DNA of 64,000 bases from Candidatus Accumulibacter cognatus (lineage in GTDB: Bacteria > Pseudomonadota > Gammaproteobacteria > Burkholderiales > Rhodocyclaceae), in NCBI GenBank assembly GCA_013414765.1, contig CP058708.1, positions 3,901,553 through 3,965,552 on the forward strand. Reading direction: 5' to 3'. A program made the position numbers and the translations under genes. The first letter of the stretch is position 1, and the number at the start of each line of letters is the position of its first letter. Below, in pieces: positions 11,166 through 56,169 of the stretch. Below the pieces are notes generated by a model. That model did no database searches. It had not been told where the DNA came from and saw only the letters and a program-made list of their open reading frames with translations.

Positions 11166-14100
11166 TCAGGGCAGGTTGCGCTCGCGCAGCCACTGCGCGA
11201 AATCGTCTGGCGGCAGTGGTCGGGAATAGAGGTAACCCTGGCCATTGTGGCATCCGGAGGCGTCGAGTTCGACGTGCTGATCGGTGAGTTCGACGCCCTC
11301 GGCGACGACGCTCATCCCGAGGTGGCGCGCCAGTGCAATGATCGCCGAACCAATTGCACGGTCATCGGCGTTGCTCGATATGCCGTCAACGAAGCTGCGG
11401 GCAATTTTGAGTTCGTGGATCGGGAAACGCTTGAGGTACGACAAGGAAGAAAAGCCGGTACCAAAGTCATCGATGCTGATCACCAGACCGAAAGCCACCA
11501 GTTCAGCCAGCATGCGCTGAGCTCGCTCGAAGTCCATCAGCACCCCTTCGGTGATTTCGATGCACAGCTGCTGCGGGGAGACGCGATGCGCATTGACGAT
11601 CTGGATCAGATCGGCTGCCATGCCTTCCTTGCGGAAATGCCGAGCAGAGATGTTGACACTGATGCGTACCGCTGGCAATCCGGCCTTGTTCCACTGGTCG
11701 ATCTGTCGGCAAACCTCTCCAAGTACCCATTCGTCGATCGACACGATCAGGCTGCTTTGCTCGGCGACCGGAATGAACACCACCGGATCCACGACTTCGC
11801 CGTTGTATTGCCAGCGCAACAGCGCCTCGGCTCCGACGACACGTTGGTTTTCGAGGTTGACCTGCGGTTGGTAATGAATGAACAGCTCGCCGTTTTCGAT
11901 CGCACGTCGCAAACCCGTTTCCAGCGCCAGTCGACGCGTCGCCTGGTGAGCCAGGTCGGCGGTGAAGAAGCGAAAAGCGTTCTTGCCATGATCCTTGGCG
12001 CGGTACATCGCAGAGTCGGCATTGCGCATCAAGGCGCTGGCGTCGGCGGCATCCTCCGGAAACATGCTCAGCCCGATGCTGGCACTGATGAAGCATTCGT
12101 GCTCGTCGAACTGATAACTGGTACTCAAGGCGCTCAGCAAACGCTCGGCGGTCAGTGTTGCCTTGTGACGATCGGCGGTTCCGAGCAGGACCACGAACTC
12201 GTCACCGCCCAGTCGTGCCACCGTGTCTTCGGCACGCACGCAGTCGAGCAGACGCATGGCGGCCTGCTTGAGCAACTTGTCGCCGGTGGCATGACCGAGG
12301 GTGTCATTGACCACCTTGAAATTGTCGAGATCGATGAACACCACTCCGATACTCTCGCGTGATCGCTCGGCTCGTGCCAGAGCGAGATGCAGACGGTCAT
12401 TGAACAATGCCCGGTTGGGCAGTCCGGTCAGTTCATCGTGGGTTGCCAGATACTCGACGCGCTGCTGCGACTCGCGCACCTTGGTAATGTCGCTGAACAT
12501 GCCGACGTAGTTGACTATCTTGCCACTCTTGTCCTTGACGGTATTGATCGACAACCATTCGAGGAAAGTCTCGCCGTTTTTCCGTCGATTCCAGATCTCG
12601 CCCTGCCAGACGCCCAGGCGATTGACCCGATCCCACATTTCGACATAGAGCTCGGGTGGGGTCTTCTCGGATCGCAGAAGGCTGGGCTTCTTGCCGATGA
12701 CCTCCTGGCGTGTGAACCCGGTGAGGGTCGTGAAAGCGTCATTGACGGTCAGGATGCGTTGCTCGGTATCGGTTACCAGGACGCCTTCGGAAGCGCGATC
12801 GAAGACCATCGCCGCTAGCCGCAAACTTTCCTCAGCGCGCTTGCGGGCGGAGATGTCGGTGGCCTGGAAACAGAGGCCGGTGATTGCTCCGTCGTGGTCG
12901 AAGAGCGGAAAACGAACTGCCAGAAAGTGGTGATTTCCGCTAGTCAGAGGCAAGGTTTCTTCACCTTCGATCTCCTGGCGCAGACGCATCGCTTCAAGTT
13001 CGCTCTCACGGAAGATTTTCGATACGGCGTCGGGAAAGAGCTGCAGGTCGGTTTTTCCGATGACCCACCCGGCGGCGAAGCCAAAAGTCTGTTCAAACTT
13101 CGGGTTGACAAACTGGTAGCGACCGCTGGCGTCCTTGACGGCCATCAACGAGACCGAGTTGTTCATCACTGCCAGCAACCTGACCTGAGTTTCGCGCGCC
13201 GAACGCTCGATTTCGTACAAATTGGTGTTGTCGGCGAACAGCAGGATCGCGCCGGCACTGCGCTGCGAAGTGCGCAATAACGGTGCGATGTGCAGCGCGT
13301 AGTGGCGACGGTTGGCGTTCACGATCTGGCGGTCGAGGGCGTTTTGGGTGTCGATCACCTTCTGGCTGTCGGTGACCAGATCGGGCATGTCTGGCAGTGC
13401 CAGATCGCGCAGATGCCGGCCGATTTGTGGCTCGCCGAGCCTGAACAGCCGCGCAGCGGCGCTGTTGAAGCGCTGCAGGGCAGAGTTCTGGTCGAGGACC
13501 ATCAAGGGATAGTCGACACTGTTCTGGATACATTCCAGTTCGATGTTGAGTTCTTGAGTCTCGGCGGTCTTGATCTGCAATTCCTCGTTGACCGTTGCCA
13601 GCTCCTCGTTGGTCGATTGCAGTTCCTCGTTCGAAGCTTCAAGTTCCTCGTTGGAGGCCTGCATTTCCTCGTTCGAGGCCTGTATCTCCTCATTCAGTGC
13701 CTGCATTTCCTCATTCGAGGTCTCGAGTTCCTCGACCAGCGTCTGCAGATGTTCGCGCGTTGCGGCCAGTTCGTCCTCGAGCTCCTTGTCGGTGACATTG
13801 TTACTGTCATCGGTGGAATTCTTGCCGGCAGATGCCGCAATCCACTCGATACAGACCATGAACAGCGCTTCATTGCCGGGAGCCAGGACCGGATGGACTG
13901 AAAGGCGGATGCCGCGATTCGGGTCGAGCGCCTTGATGTGGCGTGGCCGTCCGTGAGCCACAGTTTGCTTGACCTGGACCTGCCGCATCAGCACCTGGAC
14001 CTCGGTGCGCAGCTCGCGACGGATCAACGAGATCAGGTCAAAAGCTGGTTTGCCGGGTGAAACGTTAAGCAGTCGGCTGGCGTCGCCATGGATGTGGCGG

Positions 14101-15776
14101 ACTTCGAACTTGCTGTTGACTAGGATGCTGGTGGGAATGAAATATCGTCCTGCCGCTTCTAGCAGGATGTTCTCGAAACCCAGTGGGGTGGTCGGTTTGG
14201 CCGGCCTCTGATGCTGGTTCAGACCGGCTGCGGCAAGGGGCATTTCGGTACGTGGCAGCGGCAGTCGGGCAGCGATCCCGTGTCGGCGGTAAAGTCGCCC
14301 TTCCTTGTCGACCACGCCGAACAGCGCCTCCTGCTGGAAGATTCCCTCCGATTTTCCAAGGAACAGGTAGGCACCCGGATTGAGCGCGTAATGGAATACC
14401 GACAGCAGGCGGGCCTGCAACTCGCTCTGGAAATAAATTAGTACATTACGGCAACTGATCAGGTCGAGTCGGAGAAACGGCGGATCCTGTACCAGATCCT
14501 GGCGAGCAAAGATGACCACGTCGCGCAGGTTCTTGTTGATTTCGTAACGGTCACCGTGGGGCGTGAAATGGGTGCGGATGCGATTGCGATCCATGTGCGC
14601 CAGGCTGGAGGCAGCAAACACGCCACGCCGCGCCAGTGCCATCGCGTCGAGATCGATATCGGTGGCGAAGATCTGCAGACGGTACTGATCGAAGGAAGCT
14701 CCCAGACGTTCAGAAAACAGAATGGCCAGGGAATAAGCCTCCTCGCCGGTCGCACAACCGGCAGTCCAGATGCGGATATCGTCGCCGGGTTGCTTGTTGG
14801 CGAGAATGTCGCCAATCACCTTTTCCAGACGAGCAAAGGCGTCGCTGTCGCGAAAGAAAGCCGTGACCGAGATCAGGATGTCCTTGCATAGCCGGTCCAG
14901 TTCGACCGGCGTGTCATCGACCACCTTAAGGTAATCTTGCAGTGTACTGACGTGGTTTGCCGCCATTCGCCGCTCGATCCGTCGCCACAGTGTCGGCTCC
15001 TTATATTGCGAAAAGTCGACCTTGGTGCGGCTTCGTACCTTGCCAAGGAGCGTCTTGAGCGTTGCCGGTGCGCTTGCTGCCTGGGTGGCCACCGGAATCA
15101 GGCCACGGTTGAGGACGATCAGACTGATCTCGGCACCCATCGTCTCGGGCGGGAGAATCCAGTCGACACTACCGGTATCGATCGCCGACTGTGGCATGCC
15201 GCTATACTTGGCTGTTTCGGGATCCTGGGAAAAGGTGAAACCACCAGCCGCCTTGATCGCGTGAATTCCCGCAGCACCGTCAGAGCCCGTGCCGGACAGG
15301 ATGATGCCGATCGTCGACTCGCCAATCTCCTCGGCCAGCGAGGCGAAGAAACGGTTGACCGATGGTTTGGGCATCGATTCCTTGGTGGGTTCGACGAGCC
15401 GGAAGTGGCCCGCCTGCAGCGTCAGATTGCGATTCGGTGGAGTGATATAGACCGTATTTGCTTCGGGCAACATTCCGTCCTCGATGTCCCGAACCAGCAT
15501 CGTCGTCTCACGACCGAGCAACTGTGCCATCATGCTGCGGTAGGTCGGCGACAGGTGTTGTACGACGACGTATGTCAGCCCAAGATTCTTTGGCAGGCTC
15601 GGCAAGAGCAGACGGAGCGCTTCCAGGCCACCGGCAGAGGCGCCGATCCCGATGATGAAGGGTCTCTCGTCCGAGCGGACCGGGAGCACTGCGTCGCCAG
15701 GCGGTTTCGCTGCTGCAAGCGGCTTCTTTGAGACTGGGCGTCTTTTTACGGGTTCTTCTGCATTGCCGATGCTCAT
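11166..15776 (-). CDS. CheB-CheR-PAS-GGDEF-EAL hybrid signalling protein
   Basis: A 1536-residue cytoplasmic protein. In order: CheB methylesterase at about 38-225 with a complete triad (S47 in GASAGG, H74 in VVQHLS, D166 in SGTGSDG); CheR methyltransferase at about 245-500 ([25 protein letters not shown]); a heptad coiled coil near 660-725 made of repeated NEE(L/M/I)QA/S units; three PAS segments; GGDEF at about 1110-1265 with an intact GGDEF motif; EAL at about 1285-1525 with [16 protein letters not shown] and AEGVE. The usual LKIDRSF motif reads LKIARSF, keeping the Lys but losing the Asp. It has no CheY receiver and no membrane helix. It would couple receptor-style methylation to c-di-GMP turnover. 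It ends five bases from the phosphatase gene, tail to tail. Confidence 0.93.
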
Positions 15777-46675: not shown

Positions 46676-47004
46676 CGAAGACGCCATCAGGCACTATCGC
46701 CAGGCGACCGAGCGCCAAGTCGTGCTGCGCGACTTGGCCGGCGAAGGCCGCGTCCGCAGCAACCTCGCCAACACGCTGCGCCGCCTCGGCCGGCTCCAGG
46801 AAGCGCGCCAAGCGAGCTTGCAGGCGCGCGACACGTACCTTGCCTACCGCCGCGACGGCGGCGAGAGCCATACCGGAGGTGCGCTGCTGGTGGCCGAAAT
46901 CGCCCGCCTACTGCTCGCCGGCGAGCGACGCGCCCGGACTCGACTACGATGATGCCGCCGAAATCCTGCTGCTGCTCGACCGCCTGGCGGCCGCCGGGCG
47001 CTAA
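46676..47004 (+). pseudogene. Decayed duplicate of the TIR-CHAT gene 3' end
   Basis: Reads DAIRHYRQATERQVVLRDLAGEGRVRSNLANTLRRLGRLQEARQ, then LLVAEIARLLLAGE, then in another frame APGLDYDDAAEILLLLDRLAAAGR. This matches the 3' end of the gene at 47907-52361 (about 51864-52361) at DNA and protein level. It lacks a stretch corresponding to about 52000-52095 and part of 52225-52270, and changes frame at the second gap. It has no start of its own. It is the relic of a partial duplication or of a lost sister gene. Confidence 0.8.
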
Positions 47005-47163
47005 GCCCTGGGGTCGTCGAGCGCGCGATGGAGGTCATCGGAGCAATCGTGGTGGCGGCATTGTCTTGTGCACAGTGCAAGGGATGGTTCATCACGCAGC
47101 GTCGCGGCATCGGGACAAGATCTACGCTTCAGGCGCTGCACGTTTTTCTTGTGTTGATACCGC

Positions 47164-47188
47164 TTGACATGCTACGGGAAACCCGTAG
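47164..47188 (+). promoter_or_regulatory. Promoter/operator candidate of the toxin-antitoxin pair
   Basis: TTGACA (47164-47169) is a perfect -35 hexamer. It is followed by the perfect palindrome CTACGGG-AAA-CCCGTAG (47172-47188), the kind of operator bound by HigA-type antitoxins. The -10 is weak (TAGAGA). Confidence 0.55.
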
Positions 47189-47495
47189 AGATGAAATCCT
47201 GCGTACCGTGATCGAAACCCCGACATTCCAGAAACAGGCCGCGAAGCTGTGGTCCGAAGACGAGCGGCTGGCCTTCATCGACTGGATTGCCGCGAATCCG
47301 CTGGCCGGGGACGTGATCCCGGGTGCGGAGGGCGCACGCAAGGTTCGCTGGAGCCGTGCCGGGTCTGGCAAGTCTGGCGGGGCGCGGGTGATCTACTTCA
47401 ATCTGAGCGCGCGGGAAGTCGTGCTGCTGGTGGCGGCGTATGGCAAGGCGGAACGCAGCAACATGCTGCCCGTCGAAATCGACAAGGTGGTGTGA
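47169..47495 (+). CDS. HigB/RelE-type toxin
   Basis: 108 residues from ATG 47169. Core VIETPTFQKQAAKLWSEDERLAFIDWIAANPLAGDVIPG, then KVRWSRAGSGKSGGARVIYFNL and EVVLLVAAYGKAERSNML, as in HigB-2/RelE mRNA interferases. The start is uncertain: the palindrome at 47172-47188 would lie inside the gene, GTG at 47208 would give 95 residues, and an ATGAAATCC at 47191 would be in frame if one base were added. Antitoxin follows one base later. Confidence 0.85.
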   Translation: MLRETRRDEILRTVIETPTFQKQAAKLWSEDERLAFIDWIAANPLAGDVIPGAEGARKVRWSRAGSGKSGGARVIYFNLSAREVVLLVAAYGKAERSNMLPVEIDKVV

Positions 47496-47496
47496 G

Positions 47497-47820
47497 ATGG
47501 AGATGACGCGAATGGACATCGAGAAGGTGGCAACGGCGATCGAGGCCGATGCCGGTGAAGCGCTGCCGGACCTGCGACAGGCGCTTGCCGAGGCGAGGGA
47601 CGGGATGGGGCGGGTTACGACGCCCGAACAAATTCTGGTCCGCGAGGCGCGGAAGCAGTCGGGCCTGACGCAAGCGGCCTTCGCCGAGCGCATCGGAACC
47701 CCGCTGGCGACGCTGCGCGACTGGGAACAAGGACGCTTTGAGCCGCCGGGCGCGGTGTTGTGCCTGTTGCGCCTGATCGTCAAACATCCCGAGTTGTCTC
47801 AGGAATTGAGCGAAGCTTGA
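47497..47820 (+). CDS. HigA-type HTH antitoxin
   Basis: 107 residues. N-terminal acidic toxin-binding half (MDIEKVATAIEADAGEALPDLRQALAEARDG) and C-terminal XRE helix-turn-helix (LVREARKQSGLTQAAFAERIGTPLATLRDWEQGRFEPPGAV). Pairs with the toxin gene and probably represses at the palindrome upstream. It ends 87 bases before the TIR-CHAT gene. Confidence 0.9.
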   Translation: MEMTRMDIEKVATAIEADAGEALPDLRQALAEARDGMGRVTTPEQILVREARKQSGLTQAAFAERIGTPLATLRDWEQGRFEPPGAVLCLLRLIVKHPELSQELSEA

Positions 47821-47906: not shown

Positions 47907-50900
47907 ATGGCCGAGTATGCTTCCGGCAGCGAAACGCCCACCCCGTCGCTCACCTACTTCCTCTCGCACAGCAGCGGCGACGACGCCATCGTCCGCCAGA
48001 TGCGCATCGCGCCCGCCGAGCTGGACACGTCCCTGACGATCGAATCGCGCGCCTTCCACGGCGGCGACCCGCTCGAATCAACGATCCGCGACGCGATAGC
48101 CAGCTCGTCCGGCGTTCTCGTCCTCGTCTCGCCGCGCGCCCATCAAGCCAGTTGGGTCGGCAAGGAACTGAAGCACGCGCTCGCCGTGCAGCGGCAGCGC
48201 GGCGGCGCCGACGCGTTCCCGGTCGTCCCGCTGCTCCTCGACGGCACGCCGCTCGGCGCGTTCGAGGCCTTGTTCGACGAAGCGCCGATCCACGTCACCA
48301 TCGCCAGCACCGCGCCCGACGCCGCGCCGCACGCCCTCCTCGTCGCCTTGCGCCGGCGGCTGCCGATCGACGCCGCGCCGCAACCGCAACCGCCGGCCGA
48401 AGCGGTCGAAGAACTGCTGCTCAAACTCAGCGACCCGCGCGTCGTGACGCACGCCGTCGGCCGGCGGCGCGCGTGCGCGCGGGCGCGGCTGCTGCATGTC
48501 CCGGCGACGCCGGGGCAGCGCGAAGTGCACAGCGCCCGCTTCGCGCTCGAAGCACCGCTCGGCGTCATCGAAGCCGACGAGCTGCGCTGGTACCTCGAAG
48601 ACTACGCTCTCTGGCCGAGCCCGCTGCTCGCCGAGCGCGCGCAGCGAATCGAAGAACAACTCGCCGCCTGGGGATGGTCACTCTACGGCGCCGCCCTGCC
48701 AATGTTGCCGACCGCCGAAGTGCTCAAGTCCTGGGCCGCGCTCGGTGGCTCGTGCGGCACGGGCGGCTTGGGCAGTGCCGGCAAGAGGCGCCTCGCGCGC
48801 CGTTTCTCGGTCGAAGTCGACAGCGCCAGCGACGCCGGCACACCCGAAGAGCAAGTGCTGTTGGCCCGCGAAGCCGCAACGCTCCTGCTCGGCCTGCCGT
48901 GGGAACTCCTGCACGACGGCCGCGGCTACCTCTTCCAGGGTGGAGAGCCGGTGCGCGTGCGCCGCCGGCTGCCGAGCGAACAGCCGGTGCCGGTCGCCGT
49001 CCTCGCCACCCCGATTCGCGTTCTGCTCGCCAGCCCGCGGCCGGAAGACGACGCGTGTTCCTACATCGACCACCGCGCCAGCGCCGGGCCGCTGGTCGAC
49101 GCGATGGAAGCGCTCGCCGGCCAGGTCGAAGTGCATCTCTTGACCCCGCCGACGCTGCCCGCCTTGCGCGACGAACTCGATCGCGCCAAGCGCGCCGGCC
49201 AGCCGTACCACGTCCTGCACTTCGACGGCCACGGCGTCTACGACCGGCACGCCGGCCTCGGCGCGCTCTGCTTCGAAGACCCGGAAGACGTACGCCCGCG
49301 CGGCCGGCGCCGGCACACCAACGTCCCCTCGCCCGAACTCGGCGCGCTCCTGCGCGAATACGGCATTGCGCTCGTCTTCCTCGAAGCGTGCCAGAGCGCG
49401 CAGGCCGAAAGCGCCAACGAATCGGTCGCCAGCGCCCTGCTCAAGACCGGCGTCGGCTGGGTGGTCGCCATGAGCCACAGCGTCCTCGTCGAAACGTCGC
49501 GGCGCTTCGTCGAATCCTTCTACCGCGCCTTGAGCCAGGGCCAACGCGTCGGTTCCGCGATGCTCGCCGGCCAGCGCGAACTGCAGGACAACCCGGTGCG
49601 CGGCCGCGTCTTCGGCGTCGGCGAATTCCGCCTGCAGGACTGGTTCGTCCCCGTCCTCTACCAGGACCGCGACGACCCGCCGCTCTTCCAGGAAATGCCC
49701 AGCCCGCAGACGAGCGAAGACTGGCGTGCGCGCCTCAGGAAGCGCCTCGGCAAGCTGCCGGAGCCGCCGGCGCACGGCTTCGTCGGTCGCAGCCGCGAAC
49801 TCCTCGCGTTCGAACGCCTGCTCGCCGGCGAACGCTACGCCGTCGTTCGCGGCCAGGGTGGCGAAGGCAAGACCGCGCTGGCCAGCGAGTTCGCGCGCTG
49901 GCGCGTGCGCGCGCGGCAAGTCGCGTGCGCCACCTTCGTTTCGCTCGAAACGCACGGACACGCGCCCGCCGTGCTCGACGCCCTGGGTCGCCAACTGCTC
50001 GGCCAAGGCTACAGCGTCGCCGCGCATGCGTCGTTCGACGCGGCGCTGGCCGAGGTCGAGCGTCCACTGCGCGAGCAGCCGACGCTGCTCGTACTCGACA
50101 ACCTCGAGAGCGTGCTGGCGCCGCCGTTCGCGCTCGACCGAGGAAACGGGTCACACGGCGCCACCGCCGAAGATGGCGCCAGCACGCCCAGCGACGCCGG
50201 CGAGGACAGCGCGCTCGCCTCCGACGAACGCGAGCGCGCCGACGAGATCCTGCGTCTCGCTGCGCGGCTGCTCGCCTGCGGCGAGACGCGCGTCGTCTTC
50301 ACCAGCCGCGAAGCGCTGCCGGTGCCGTTCGCCGGCGCAACGCAGTGCCTCGAGCTCGAACGGCTCAGCCGCGCCGACGCCGTGCAGCTGGTCGAACGCG
50401 CGCTCGGCCTCGACGCCGCTGGCATGGGCCACGCCGCCGAGGCGCAGCGCGCCGAGATCGAGTCGCTGGTCGACGCCGTGCATGGGCACGCGCGCACGCT
50501 CGCGCTGCTCGCGCCGGCGCTGCGCGAACGCGGGCCGGCGGCGACGCAAGCCGCGCTGGTCGAATTGATCGAAGCGATGGAGCGGCGCTTCCCAGGGCAG
50601 CGCGAGCATTCGCTGCTGGCCAGCGCCGAGCTGTCGCTGCGCCGGCTGCCGCCGGGGTTGCGCGAACGCGCGCCGGTGCTCGGCGTTTTCCACGGCGCCG
50701 TCGATCTCGATATGCTGCGGCACATGACCGGCTGGGAGGCGGCCGAGGTGCAGGCGCTCGGCCAGGCGCTGGTCGCCACCGGGCTGGCGAGAGGCGAAGC
50801 CTACAACCATCTGAGCCTCAACCCGGCGCTGTGCCCGTATCTCGCAGCGCAACTGGTGCCGGCGGCGCGCGCGGCGCTGGCCGAGCAGTGGACCGAGGCG

Positions 50901-52361
50901 ATGCGGCAGTATGCCGAGTTCCTGCGCCGCGAGCAGTCGAAGAACAGCGAAATGGCCGCCGCGCTGACGCTAATGGAACTGCCGAACCTGATGGCGCTGC
51001 TCGAGCGCGTCGAGCACGCCGGCGATCCCGAAGCGACGATCGACCTGACGACGACGCTGCACACGCTGCTGCAATACCTGAACCGGCCGCGGCTGCTGGC
51101 GCGCGTCGCGCAGGCGCGCGACGCCGCGAGCCGCTCGCTCGGCGAGGCGGCCTGGGGCCAAGCACAGTTCCGGGCCGAAGCCATGCGCGTCGAGCAACTC
51201 CTCGCCGCCGGCCGCGTCGGCGAAGCGCTGACGGCGGCGCAACGGCTGCACGAGCGCGCGCAGGCGGCCGGCGAGGCGGTGTACGCCGACGCCGACTACG
51301 ACCTGGCGACGGCGTTCATCCTCCTCGGGCGAATGCTGTTCCGGGCTGGGCAGGCCGGCGCCGCGTTGCCGCTGCTCGCAGATGCGCAGCGGCGCTTCAC
51401 TACGGTCGAAGCGCGTGCACCCGGCTGCGGCGCAGCGCACATGGTGACGCGTTGCATCGGCGAGCGGGCGGACTGCCTTCGAGACCTTGGTCGCCTCGAC
51501 GAAGCCGTGCAGGCGTACGAACAGGCGATTGCCTTAGCCGAGCAGCGCCACAACGAACGCGAGGTCGCGGTTGGCAAGGGCCAGTTGGGCACCGTCCGCC
51601 TACTGCAACGCCGCTTCCCGGAAGCGCTCGCCGCGCATACCGAAGCGCGCGAGCGCTTCGCGGCGCTCGGCGAAGCGGCGTCGGTGGCCGTCGCCTGGCA
51701 CCAGATCGGCTTGGTCCACCACTACGCCGGCAACGGCGAAGCCGCGGAAGACGCGTATCGCGAAGCGCTGGCGATCGAGGTGCTATGCAACAACGTGGCC
51801 GGGCAGGCGGGAACCTTGACCCAGTTGGGCCTTCTCTACGCCGACGTTCTCGGCCGCCCCGGACGCCGTCACGCACTATCGCCAGGCGGCCGAGAGCGAC
51901 GTCGCGTTGCGCAACGTAGCCAACGAAGGCCGCGTGCGCAACAACCTCGCCAGCACGCTGCGCCGCCTCGGCCGTCGGCAGGAAGCGCGCCGAGAGATCG
52001 AACGCGCGATCGCGTGTATGCACGGGCTCGGCCACGCCGCCATGCCGTGGATAGCCTGGGCCATCCTCGCCAAGATCGAGAACGACGACGGCCGTGCCAG
52101 CGAAGCGCGCCAGGCGAGCCGGCAGGCGCGCGAGGCCTTCCTCGCCTGGCGCCGCGACGGCGGCGAGAACCACACGCCCGGCGCGCGCCTGGCGGCCGAA
52201 ATCGCCGGCCTGCTGCTCGCCGGCGACCGCGGCAGCGCCGCCGCGGGGCTCGCGCAACTGGCCAGCGCCGCGCGGCGCTCGCCGAGACGCCCGGACTGAA
52301 CTACGACGATGCCGCCGAAATCCTGCTGCTCCTCGACCGCCTGACCGCCGCTGGGCGCTGA
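47907..52361 (+). CDS. TIR-CHAT-STAND NTPase-TPR conflict-system protein, frameshifted near 3' end
   Basis: 1484 codons. 14-153: TIR domain (LTYFLSHSSGDD; ASWVGKEL with candidate catalytic E87). About 160-330: linker of unknown fold. 330-600: CHAT caspase-like protease with H442 (LHFDGHG) and C495 (LEACQS). 620-950: STAND/AAA NTPase, Walker A GQGGEGKT (K655), Walker B TLLVLDN (D731). 960 to end: helical/TPR repeats. Up to about 51850 the frame is intact. Then the TPR sequence continues in another frame (DAVTHYRQAAESDVALRNVANEGRVRNN) to about 52270 and returns for TPGLNYDDAAEILLLLDRL. The duplicate at 46.7 kb supports that second frame as original. ATG 47907 gives the TIR start. Confidence 0.88.
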   Translation: MAEYASGSETPTPSLTYFLSHSSGDDAIVRQMRIAPAELDTSLTIESRAFHGGDPLESTIRDAIASSSGVLVLVSPRAHQASWVGKELKHALAVQRQRGGADAFPVVPLLLDGTPLGAFEALFDEAPIHVTIASTAPDAAPHALLVALRRRLPIDAAPQPQPPAEAVEELLLKLSDPRVVTHAVGRRRACARARLLHVPATPGQREVHSARFALEAPLGVIEADELRWYLEDYALWPSPLLAERAQRIEEQLAAWGWSLYGAALPMLPTAEVLKSWAALGGSCGTGGLGSAGKRRLARRFSVEVDSASDAGTPEEQVLLAREAATLLLGLPWELLHDGRGYLFQGGEPVRVRRRLPSEQPVPVAVLATPIRVLLASPRPEDDACSYIDHRASAGPLVDAMEALAGQVEVHLLTPPTLPALRDELDRAKRAGQPYHVLHFDGHGVYDRHAGLGALCFEDPEDVRPRGRRRHTNVPSPELGALLREYGIALVFLEACQSAQAESANESVASALLKTGVGWVVAMSHSVLVETSRRFVESFYRALSQGQRVGSAMLAGQRELQDNPVRGRVFGVGEFRLQDWFVPVLYQDRDDPPLFQEMPSPQTSEDWRARLRKRLGKLPEPPAHGFVGRSRELLAFERLLAGERYAVVRGQGGEGKTALASEFARWRVRARQVACATFVSLETHGHAPAVLDALGRQLLGQGYSVAAHASFDAALAEVERPLREQPTLLVLDNLESVLAPPFALDRGNGSHGATAEDGASTPSDAGEDSALASDERERADEILRLAARLLACGETRVVFTSREALPVPFAGATQCLELERLSRADAVQLVERALGLDAAGMGHAAEAQRAEIESLVDAVHGHARTLALLAPALRERGPAATQAALVELIEAMERRFPGQREHSLLASAELSLRRLPPGLRERAPVLGVFHGAVDLDMLRHMTGWEAAEVQALGQALVATGLARGEAYNHLSLNPALCPYLAAQLVPAARAALAEQWTEAMRQYAEFLRREQSKNSEMAAALTLMELPNLMALLERVEHAGDPEATIDLTTTLHTLLQYLNRPRLLARVAQARDAASRSLGEAAWGQAQFRAEAMRVEQLLAAGRVGEALTAAQRLHERAQAAGEAVYADADYDLATAFILLGRMLFRAGQAGAALPLLADAQRRFTTVEARAPGCGAAHMVTRCIGERADCLRDLGRLDEAVQAYEQAIALAEQRHNEREVAVGKGQLGTVRLLQRRFPEALAAHTEARERFAALGEAASVAVAWHQIGLVHHYAGNGEAAEDAYREALAIEVLCNNVAGQAGTLTQLGLLYADVLGRPGRRHALSPGGRERRRVAQRSQRRPRAQQPRQHAAPPRPSAGSAPRDRTRDRVYARARPRRHAVDSLGHPRQDRERRRPCQRSAPGEPAGARGLPRLAPRRRREPHARRAPGGRNRRPAARRRPRQRRRGARATGQRRAALAETPGLNYDDAAEILLLLDRLTAAGR

Positions 52362-52729: not shown

Positions 52730-54220
52730 CTACGCCGGACCGGCGGTATCCGCTTGCTGATGAATGTACTTCCTGGCGGTGCGTCTATCCAAACCGGTGC
52801 GCCGTGCCACTTCTTCATAGGTGCCCAGGCGCTTGTAGAGCAGCTGACAATAGCCGGCAAGCAAGGCGCTGGCTCCGAGCCGGCCGTCGTCGATCGCTTG
52901 CAGCAAGGCGTCGCTGCTCGCTCCGGCTGACGCCTCGATGGCGGCATCATAACGTCCGGTGAGCAGGATGCGACGCACCGCCTGTTCGAGTTCGCGCACA
53001 TTGCCCGGCCACGGATAATCGGCTGGCAGGCAGCCGGCGAGCGCGTCAAGGACACGTCCGCCGACCGTTGCGTCGGCAACGCCGAGCATGCGCGTCACCA
53101 GCAGCCCGACCAGTCTCGCCAGCTCGTCCGGCGCCTCGGCGAGTCGTTGGCGCAGCGTTGGCAGCGTGATGGCATCCGAGCACAGGCGGTAGTAGAAGTC
53201 GTGACGAAATTCGCCGCGCGCGATCAGTTGATGTACGGGTCGATTGGTAGCGGCGATGACGCGTCCGGCAAAGCGCTGTGTCTGGTGGCTGCCGATGGGC
53301 GTGAAACTTCGCTCCTGCAATACCTGCAGGAGCTTGATCTGAATCGGGATGCTGACCTCGCCGATTTCGTCGAGAAGCAGCGTGCCGTGCGCGCTCGAGC
53401 GCGCGAGAACGCCGTCGTGGTGTTCGATGGCGCCGGTGAAGGCACCCTTGCGATGGCCGAACAGCTCGGACTCGATCAGGGTCTCCGGGAACTGTGACAG
53501 ATTGATGGCGATGAAACTGTCGGCGAAGTTGGCGGCGAAACGCCGCTGCTGCCACAGGTAGGGGATGTGCCCCGAGCGGCCGATCGCCGCCGCCGCCTGA
53601 CCCTTGCCGGTTCCTGTTTCCCCCAGCAGCAGGGTCGAGAAATCTTCCATCCGTTTCCACAGATGGGTGTCGAACAACTGCATGTCATGGGTGAAGACGT
53701 TGTTCCAGAGAGCCCGCCGCAGGCTTTTCATCGATGGACTCTCGCCCACGAGTCCGGCCTCGATGAAGTAGTACGCCCGCCGCAACTGGTGAAAGAGGGC
53801 GAAATAACGGGCCGCTTCTTCGTCGGAAAAGCCTCGGCGTACCAGTTCGCCGAGGAGCCGGTCGGCGAGCGTCGCGTCAACCCGCGTTTCCCGTTGACTG
53901 GCCTGGCGCTCGATCAGGGCGTCCAGGCCTGCCAGATGGCGGTGATAAACGTCGAAAAGGAATACCGGCTTCGCGCAGTGGGCGTCTTCGGCGGTCAAAT
54001 CACTCAACGCGAACGTCCCCTGCGCATCCAGCGCCTGCAATCGGCGGTTGATGACCGTCATCAGGGCCTCGGCGTCGGCCATCCCTGGCCGCATGAAGTC
54101 CCCGGCGACTTCGCGCACCTGCTGCGCCCGTATTTCCGAGAAGGGATTGGCGAAAACGATCTTGCCGATGCGCAGAAAGAAGTCTCGATCACGCGCGCTC
54201 AGCATCTGCGACGCAGCCAT
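52730..54220 (-). CDS. Sigma-54-dependent transcriptional activator
   Basis: 496 residues. 1-190: N-terminal sensory region with no receiver, GAF or PAS signature I can recognise (FANPFSEIRAQQVREVAGDFM). 190-430: AAA+ domain with Walker A LLGETGTGKGQ, the sigma-54 contact loop KGAFTGAIEHH, Walker B GTLLLDEIGE and the sensor ATNRPVHQL. C-terminus: FIS-like HTH (TYEEVARRTGLDRRTARKYI). It is divergent from the 54.4 kb operon, whose start has a -24/-12 promoter, so it is the likely activator. The inducing signal is unknown. Confidence 0.93.
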   Translation of the reverse strand: MAASQMLSARDRDFFLRIGKIVFANPFSEIRAQQVREVAGDFMRPGMADAEALMTVINRRLQALDAQGTFALSDLTAEDAHCAKPVFLFDVYHRHLAGLDALIERQASQRETRVDATLADRLLGELVRRGFSDEEAARYFALFHQLRRAYYFIEAGLVGESPSMKSLRRALWNNVFTHDMQLFDTHLWKRMEDFSTLLLGETGTGKGQAAAAIGRSGHIPYLWQQRRFAANFADSFIAINLSQFPETLIESELFGHRKGAFTGAIEHHDGVLARSSAHGTLLLDEIGEVSIPIQIKLLQVLQERSFTPIGSHQTQRFAGRVIAATNRPVHQLIARGEFRHDFYYRLCSDAITLPTLRQRLAEAPDELARLVGLLVTRMLGVADATVGGRVLDALAGCLPADYPWPGNVRELEQAVRRILLTGRYDAAIEASAGASSDALLQAIDDGRLGASALLAGYCQLLYKRLGTYEEVARRTGLDRRTARKYIHQQADTAGPA

Positions 54221-54382: not shown

Positions 54383-54772
54383 ATGAACCCTACCCTCAAC
54401 CACATCAACCTCTGGATGGCCTGGATCGGCATCCTGCTGGGACTGCTCAGCGGTGCGCTGATCGGCCTTTTCTTCCACCGCGACGAGTGGCTGGGTGGCT
54501 ACGGTAGCTGGCGTCGCCGCCTGCTGCGACTGGGCCACATCAGCTTCTTCGGGATAGCGTTTCTCAATCTCGCGTTCGCCAACACGGTCAGCCTGATGGG
54601 AGCGGCGACGCCCGCCTTCGCTGCCTGGTCCTTGGTGGCAGGCGCCGTGCTGATGCCGGCCATCTGTTTTCTTGCAGCGTGGCGCCCAGGCTTCCGTCAC
54701 CTTTTCTTCTTGCCGGTGGTGACGCTGATCAGTGGCGCGGTCGGCCTGCTCGCTGGCGAGGTGCTGCCATGA
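54383..54772 (+). CDS. Four-helix membrane protein of unknown function
   Basis: 129 residues with four hydrophobic segments (LWMAWIGILLGLLSGALIGLFF, ISFFGIAFLNLAFANTVSL, AAWSLVAGAVLMPAICFLAA, FFLPVVTLISGAVGLLAG). No catalytic motif. ATG 54383 has AAGGAG upstream. It overlaps the radical SAM gene by ATGA and shares its sigma-54 promoter, so the two products likely work together. Confidence 0.85.
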   Translation: MNPTLNHINLWMAWIGILLGLLSGALIGLFFHRDEWLGGYGSWRRRLLRLGHISFFGIAFLNLAFANTVSLMGAATPAFAAWSLVAGAVLMPAICFLAAWRPGFRHLFFLPVVTLISGAVGLLAGEVLP

Positions 54773-56169
54773 GCCAGCCGATTGATGGGCCGTTCGCATT
54801 GCCCGCAGCGGCTAGTCAGCCCATGCCGGTGATCGCCGGCACGAAGCCGTTGCGAATCGTCTTCATCGCCATGAGCGGACTGCGCGCCTGTGATCCCGAA
54901 CTGACCGCGCTCGGCCTGACGCTCCCCGGTTTCGTCGAACGCAATCGCAGCATTGCCTCGCTGCCCAGCCTCGGTCTGCTCACTCTGGCCGGGATGACGC
55001 CGGCGCAGCACCAGCGCCGCTACCTTGAAATGCCCGACCTGAGCGGCATCGACCAGCTTCCCCGTGACGTCGATCTGGTGGCCATCTCGAGCTTCAGCGC
55101 GCAGATCAAGGAAGCCTACCAGGTGGCAGAACATTATCGGACACTGCGTATCCCGGTGGTGATAGGCGGCCTGCATATGACCGCGCTGCCGCAGGAAGCG
55201 ATTGCCCACGGTGCGGCCGCAGTTGTCGGCGAAGGCGAGACCGTGTGGCACGACGTTCTGCGTGACGCCGAGCGTGGCCATTTGCGCCCCTTGTACGACG
55301 CGCGCGGTGCCGAGTTCAACCTTGCAGCCGCCCCGATGCCGGCGTACGAACTGCTGGACCTCGAGCGCTACAATCGCATCACCGTGCAGACCAGCCGCGG
55401 CTGCCCATGGCGCTGCAGCTTCTGCGCGAGTTCGATCCTGCTCACCCGCAAGTACAAGCAGAAACCCGCGGCGCAGGTGCTGGCGGAAATCGACCACATC
55501 CGTTCGCTCTGGCCGCGGCCTTTCATCGAGTTCGCCGACGACAACAGCTTTTGTCACCGCGCCTACTGGAAAGCCCTCTTGCCAGAGATCGCCAAGCGCC
55601 AGATCAAATGGTTTGCAGAAAGCGATCTCGCGATTCATGAAGACGACGAGTTGCTGAGGCTGATGCGCGAAGCCGGTTGCGCGGAGGTGCTGATCGGTCT
55701 CGAGAGCCCAACGACCGAGGGACTCGACGGGGTGGAGACGAAGTGCAACTGGAAACTGTCGCAGGCACCGCAATATCGCGACGCCATCCGCCGCATCCAG
55801 GCCCGGGGCATTCGCGTCAACGCCTGCTTCGTGCTCGGACTCGACGGTCAGACGACACAGATCTTCGATCAGGTCCTCGACTTCGTTGCCGAAGCCCTGC
55901 CTTTCGACGTGCAGGTGACGGTGCCGACACCTTTTCCAGGTACACCGCTGTTCGCGCAACTGCAGCGGGAAGGGCGCCTGCTGGCCGATCGGGCATGGGA
56001 GCGCTGCACCTTGTTCGACGTCGGCTTCCGGCCGACACACATGAGCCCGCAGGAGTTGGCGGCCGGCCTGCGCCAGATGGTCGTTGCGCTCTACAGCGAG
56101 GAGGCGACGGCGCGCCGGCACCAGCATTTCAAGGCGCTGCGCCAGCAAACGCAGTCGATGGCCGCCTGA
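54769..56169 (+). CDS. B12-binding-domain radical SAM protein
   Basis: 466 residues. 25-190: B12-binding-type Rossmann region (VDLVAISSFSAQIKEAYQVAEHYR, IPVVIGGLHMTALPQEA). 205-420: radical SAM with QTSRGCPWRCSFCASSILL and the downstream FIEFADDNSFCHR and EVLIGLESPTTEGLDG. C-terminal tail is short. Related enzymes methylate or rearrange unactivated carbons in lipids and natural products; substrate here not decidable. Expression is probably sigma-54 dependent. Confidence 0.9.
   Translation: MSQPIDGPFALPAAASQPMPVIAGTKPLRIVFIAMSGLRACDPELTALGLTLPGFVERNRSIASLPSLGLLTLAGMTPAQHQRRYLEMPDLSGIDQLPRDVDLVAISSFSAQIKEAYQVAEHYRTLRIPVVIGGLHMTALPQEAIAHGAAAVVGEGETVWHDVLRDAERGHLRPLYDARGAEFNLAAAPMPAYELLDLERYNRITVQTSRGCPWRCSFCASSILLTRKYKQKPAAQVLAEIDHIRSLWPRPFIEFADDNSFCHRAYWKALLPEIAKRQIKWFAESDLAIHEDDELLRLMREAGCAEVLIGLESPTTEGLDGVETKCNWKLSQAPQYRDAIRRIQARGIRVNACFVLGLDGQTTQIFDQVLDFVAEALPFDVQVTVPTPFPGTPLFAQLQREGRLLADRAWERCTLFDVGFRPTHMSPQELAAGLRQMVVALYSEEATARRHQHFKALRQQTQSMAA

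Follow-up and report, generated by a model that had tools for sequence, protein, structure and literature searches.

Here, we describe a gene from Candidatus Accumulibacter cognatus that joins a TIR domain, a CHAT protease, a STAND (NACHT) ATPase and tetratricopeptide repeats (TPRs) in a single chain. The gene lies at positions 47907-52361 on the plus strand of a stretch of 64,000 nucleotides (the window; contig CP058708.1, positions 3,901,553 to 3,965,552), and Pfam profiles, AlphaFold models and PDB fold matches are concordant on its modules. On the analysis presented below, the product of this gene family is probably an NLR-like receptor encoded by one gene, with two catalytic effectors and, by analogy, a role in immunity or cell death; an intact paralogue elsewhere in the genome is expected to be the functional copy. 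The four-module order had been proposed by an earlier reading of the DNA (the sequence-only reading) and is now backed by profiles, models and conservation, and the residues singled out there (E87, H442, C495, K655 and D731) are all where that reading had placed them.

The open frame encodes 1484 residues and follows its native frame until about position 51860. The TIR domain (residues 13-152; window 47943-48362) contains W83 and E87 (codon 48165-48167) and is followed by the CHAT protease unit with its N-terminal lobe (residues 166-590; 48402-49676), in which H442 (codon 49230-49232) and C495 (codon 49389-49391) form the His/Cys pair. The STAND (NACHT-like) ATPase and the helical region after it occupy about residues 598-1000 (49698-50906, the end being approximate) and include K655 (codon 49869-49871) and D731 (codon 50097-50099); the TPR array in the native frame extends over about residues 1001-1318 (50907-51860), as indicated by Pfam TPR_12, helix pairs in the model and matches to TPR structures. 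All of these features are on the plus strand. In the PDB, the models matched SPARTA (TIR), Craspase TPR-CHAT and separase (CHAT), and STAND-TPR proteins and Apaf-1. Pfam NACHT stayed under its cut-off in the window protein; Foldseek matched the STAND region to 6mfv_A (1.5e-11) and Apaf-1 (2.4e-8). The top Foldseek match, 8tl0_C (SAVED-CHAT, 1.1e-8), gave a poor whole-chain alignment (root-mean-square deviation 29.3, and 15.5 in a second comparison), and the fold assignment is therefore based on domain-level Foldseek matches; a second Foldseek look at the STAND-TPR model returned TPR-type matches only (model residues 305-718) and carried little information on the STAND part. With its fold and conserved catalytic glutamate, the first domain belongs to the TIR-domain NADases (NADase activity predicted), the second joins the CHAT or caspase-separase peptidases by its fold and His/Cys pair (protease activity likewise predicted), and a STAND ATPase with Walker A and B motifs between effector and repeats places the whole chain among the NLR-like STAND receptors. 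The sequence-only reading had staked its interpretation on TIR and CHAT folds in structure prediction and on a His/Cys pair in homologues, and both were found. A chance match or a wrong fold is ruled out by the concordance of profile, model and conservation.

A scan of 84,980 species, one genome each (records of the window's own genome possibly being left out), returned 56 loci, which together with six further sources yielded 31 full-length frames; one locus (L058) duplicates another (L078) and was dropped, leaving 30 full-length relatives to be compared with the window protein as far as it stays in frame. E87, H442, K655 and D731 are present in 30/30 of these relatives, C495 in 29/30 and W83 in 28/30. 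The sole C495 exception belongs to a Cyanobium bin with two full-length copies in tandem (L092:1489-12395), the second of which has F for the CHAT cysteine. Counted by locus, taking the best match at 55 matched loci of the 56 and covered sites only, the figures are 52/52 for E87, 50/52 for W83, 50/50 for H442, 46/46 for C495, 41/41 for K655 and 40/40 for D731. We also compared nonsynonymous with synonymous divergence (dN/dS, NG86 method) in the six pairs among the window gene, the paralogue, the copy of another genome of the genus (G013) and that of Aquabacterium; the ratio was 0.22-0.35 for TIR, 0.17-0.52 for the TIR-CHAT linker, 0.17-0.28 for CHAT, 0.30-0.41 for STAND and 0.26-0.56 for the TPRs. 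Since the values for TIR and CHAT are below 0.4 in 6/6 pairs, both effectors are, by this measure, under purifying selection in these comparisons. The kept residues and these ratios rule out that either TIR or CHAT is a decayed relic.

The window gene itself looks like a damaged duplicate, the lesion being either real or an assembly error. Near 51.86 kb it departs from its reading frame, which it re-enters near 52.3 kb; most of the final ~165 residues are thus translated in the wrong frame. Compared with the paralogue, homology is in-frame to nucleotide 51860; in the damaged 3' part (51861-52361, plus strand) TPR homology runs on in another frame (51862-52311), part of the paralogue sequence is missing, and the last residues are in the first frame again, with the frame kept open across the damage by GC-rich DNA. 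The intact paralogue (1497 residues; G000:C1:1,783,929-1,788,422, or L018:4930-9423, minus strand) is the copy expected to work. Divergence from Aquabacterium (dN, window/paralogue) is 0.163/0.208 for TIR, 0.159/0.156 for the linker, 0.138/0.139 for CHAT, 0.187/0.217 for STAND and 0.226/0.236 for the TPRs; from G013 it is 0.172/0.114, 0.161/0.166, 0.074/0.086, 0.125/0.151 and 0.195/0.198, respectively. The damage was probably late, because the window copy shows no faster change except in TIR measured to G013, and an absence of relaxed selection before the damage is borne out only partly, the TIR value being higher in the window copy to G013 and lower to Aquabacterium. CHAT and TIR_2 share one open frame at two places of the genome, the window gene and the paralogue; the genome as a whole (5.17 Mb) has 7 CHAT and 13 TIR_2 matches, one TIR_2 with an internal stop.

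Within the genus, residues 1-620 found some match (E <= 1e-3) in 17 of 28 species genomes, and a continuous TIR and CHAT match in four of the 28: the gene's own genome with two copies, G016, G013 and G007. The G016 copy is broken farther along, and an inverted stretch homologous to paralogue residues 803-996 lies within it (L057:9381-10259). Copies in G004, G022 and G027 are split or cut by contig ends, and those in G003 and G006 are remnants. Nine of 395 sampled genomes of the family, the genus included and with at most three candidates scored per genome, matched at 1e-20; all nine are in the genus, and family genomes outside it gave no match at this threshold. The 30 full-length relatives, the majority of them metagenome bins, come from seven NCBI phyla (Pseudomonadota, Planctomycetota, Acidobacteriota, Chlorobiota, Cyanobacteriota, Myxococcota and Nitrospirota) and from Aminicenantes; named strains with a full-length copy include Nitrosomonas oligotropha Nm45 (L086) and Aquabacterium terrae S2 (L072). 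Judged by these sequences from many bacterial phyla, the architecture is no isolated accident. At the remaining loci the gene is truncated by a contig end, interrupted by frame breaks or without TIR; the proposition that every relative has a TIR domain is wrong. In Streptomyces bambusae (L124, ~29% identity) CHAT, STAND and TPR follow in the same order, with no TIR in the Pfam list at E <= 0.01. In a Thermoanaerobaculia bin (L100:6120-7920, plus strand), about 600 other residues, with a weak HATPase_c_4 match only, stand at the TIR place before CHAT-STAND-TPR, a possible effector exchange or chance open frame.

On well-supported branches of the tree, Acidobacteriota account for 3 changes and Pseudomonadota for at least 4, phyla are mixed in parts, and the copy of A. 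phosphatis SBR_S is placed apart from the window's copies. Horizontal transfer is thereby suggested rather than shown, because bins can contain foreign contigs. Carriage by phages or plasmids is unsupported: 15 plasmid records matched, none over at least 80% of the 620-residue query and all from residue 213 or later, along with one record of phage sequence (residues 324-597) and two viral-contig loci (residues 205-586 and 210-586). Adjoining the intact SBR_S copy is a second, divergent TIR-CHAT-STAND gene (L058:4414-7752, minus strand); it was uninformative, being found at 1e-20 in one of the 28 genus genomes, its own.

Upstream of the gene in the window lie a HigB/RelE-like toxin gene (47169-47495, plus strand, with its start at 47169 or upstream at 47028; RelE PF06296 E 0.00091, under cut-off) and a HigA-like helix-turn-helix antitoxin gene (47497-47820, plus strand; HTH_3 1.5e-9 and MqsA_antitoxin 4.2e-8, both above cut-off). 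Homologues of the pair (pieces of 70-100% identity) were found upstream of the gene in G027 (L060), G022 (L063) and G006 (L066), higB being split in two at L060 and L063; L062 gave a partial, weaker match to higB (41%). The search found no homologue beside the intact copies L018, L056 and L058, nor at any locus outside Accumulibacter (the window flanks, L024 and L025, served as BLAST targets only), which rules out HigBA as a necessary or constant partner. The adjoining HigB/HigA pair reported by the sequence-only reading is therefore real in the window but local, and since the search found its homologues at some Accumulibacter loci and nowhere else, it is weak evidence for function. Further upstream lies the decayed 3' end of a further gene copy (46677-47004, plus strand; 47.6% amino-acid identity in the longest piece); three stretches of its DNA are 82-90% identical to the 3' part of the window gene itself. 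Because such a tail stands before HigBA and the gene not only in the window but also in L060 and L063, the arrangement suggests a duplicated unit.

Among 508 flanking frames from 58 sources (the remnant-to-gene region with HigBA being outside this comparison), no family was common to more than three loci; five families reached three, within Competibacteraceae-type or Methylococcaceae loci. For MoxR-vWA ternary conflict systems, the observation is this same limit of three loci, no model search having been aimed at MoxR or vWA. PADLOC at 1e-5 matched two of nine proteins flanking the window gene and the paralogue: the sigma-54 activator directly downstream (52730-54220, minus strand), with an RtcR/PspF-like match across its AAA part, and the protein at 54679-56169 (PDC-M51A). 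Elsewhere in the window, an open frame of 1536 residues occupies 11166-15776 on the minus strand.

How might such a receptor act? The TPRs would keep the protein shut and bind the trigger, probably an invader protein; ATP-driven oligomerisation would then cluster the N-terminal domains, whereupon the TIRs would use up NAD+ and the CHAT domains would cut proteins. The cell would arrest or die before the invader multiplies, and with two effectors on one sensor the response may be harder to block. TPR sensing, STAND oligomerisation, NAD+ loss, proteolysis and arrest or death are all steps that we infer. Besides the domains and folds, the conserved residues and the dN/dS values, an immune receptor is favoured by the patchy presence and decaying copies among the genus genomes counted above, by the mixing of phyla in parts of the tree and by the want of any flanking family in more than three of the 58 sources. 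Several observations weigh on the other side: no recognised defence family spans the protein (PADLOC gave one weak match, PDC-S66, E 0.0029, in the TIR part); the neighbourhood survey called for by the sequence-only reading yielded, from the nine flanking proteins scanned, no clear defence island; conservation of the TPR part is high for a sensor; and phylum labels are still clustered in the tree (10 changes against a shuffled mean of 13.5, with 0/200 shuffles as low), so that there are long vertical stretches as well.

The lack of a clear island, conservation from end to end and a weak NCBIfam match to HetF, a cell-division protein (2.4e-4; 19.5 bits, the cut-off being 1200), could also point to a signalling or developmental regulator rather than a defence protein, although we find this very improbable for a gene that is patchy in its genus, has no match at 1e-20 elsewhere in the sampled family and leaves remnants and split copies behind. 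Other alternatives concern the division of labour between the effectors. Sequence does not distinguish between effectors acting in parallel, a signal from TIR to CHAT and cleavage by CHAT that acts on TIR. In a single-chain relay, cyclic ADP-ribose (cADPR) made by the TIR would turn on the CHAT domain, in its own molecule or in adjacent ones, and killing would be left to the protease. The CHAT unit, however, matches Craspase and separase, neither of which is to our knowledge under cADPR control, and the relay appears unlikely even with both active sites retained. Its precedent is type IV Thoeris, where, in the part of the source available, the TIR product N7-cADPR activates a caspase-like protease (PMC12847820). 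Alternatively, CHAT could cut the linker and free or activate the TIR; proteases are described as activating partner (pro-)nucleases in AVAST and Hachiman in the accessible portion of another account (PMC12799240). We regard such gating as very improbable, given that the linker (residues 131-205) is conserved like the domains (mean 0.70) and that no cleavage site was identified. Taken together, an internal two-step circuit on an Apaf-1-like switch, with CHAT either reading the TIR product or freeing the TIR, is rather unlikely.

Bacterial and eukaryotic cell-death pathways have TIR NADases and caspase-like proteases in common as effectors. In several phyla the present family has both, with intact active-site residues, attached to one Apaf-1-like switch and encoded by a single gene for which no constant partner was found. 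Keeping both effectors on one switch therefore allows a direct test of why a receptor has two: for redundancy against invader inhibitors, or because one effector activates the other in a relay.

Several known systems share parts of this design. Craspase TPR-CHAT (Csx29) and separase are fold matches of the CHAT unit and, as far as we know, have neither TIR nor STAND; when a profile of residues 1-620 was searched by sequence, no CHAT chain came up at E values as high as 1. Avs and bNACHT, the bacterial NLR-related STAND proteins, resemble the present protein in their N-terminal effector, central STAND ATPase and C-terminal repeats, judging from the available part of one account (PMC10907252); they differ in that two catalytic effectors are here in tandem and no PADLOC model spans the protein (no PADLOC Avs model matched at E <= 0.1, other Avs libraries not being searched). 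The sequence-only reading knew of no system with this exact order. No account of a TIR-CHAT-STAND-TPR family was found in the open papers searched, where the string 'TIR-CHAT' is absent; subscription papers lay mostly outside the search, and the family may be known elsewhere. The pairing of TIR and CHAT in one protein is already published: the target protein of diversity-generating retroelement (DGR) 2 in Thiohalocapsa PB-PSB1 was proposed as a conflict system, with a DGR-diversified C-type-lectin domain as its sensor and no mention of STAND-TPR in the portion available, a comparison made by description only (PMC10907252). Likewise, in the accessible parts of their sources, TIR or caspase domains occur on STAND-type proteins and STAND-GT4 proteins carry 'TIR and caspase' N-terminal effectors, whether in one chain or not being unstated (PMC7159879, PMC8195603), and NACHT and TIR are among the domains linked to prokaryotic caspases (PMC3501461). 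We thus file TIR-CHAT-STAND-TPR as a variant within the NLR-like kind, undescribed as far as the open literature shows. Type IV Thoeris, in the part of its description available (PMC12847820), is alike in pairing a TIR with a caspase-like protease, but there the two are separate genes of an operon and the signal diffuses between their products, whereas each of the 30 full-length relatives has both domains in one chain, in a single gene with its own STAND-TPR part. Should TIR and CHAT prove to form a two-step circuit, this widespread family of putative one-gene immune receptors would be the single-protein counterpart of type IV Thoeris.
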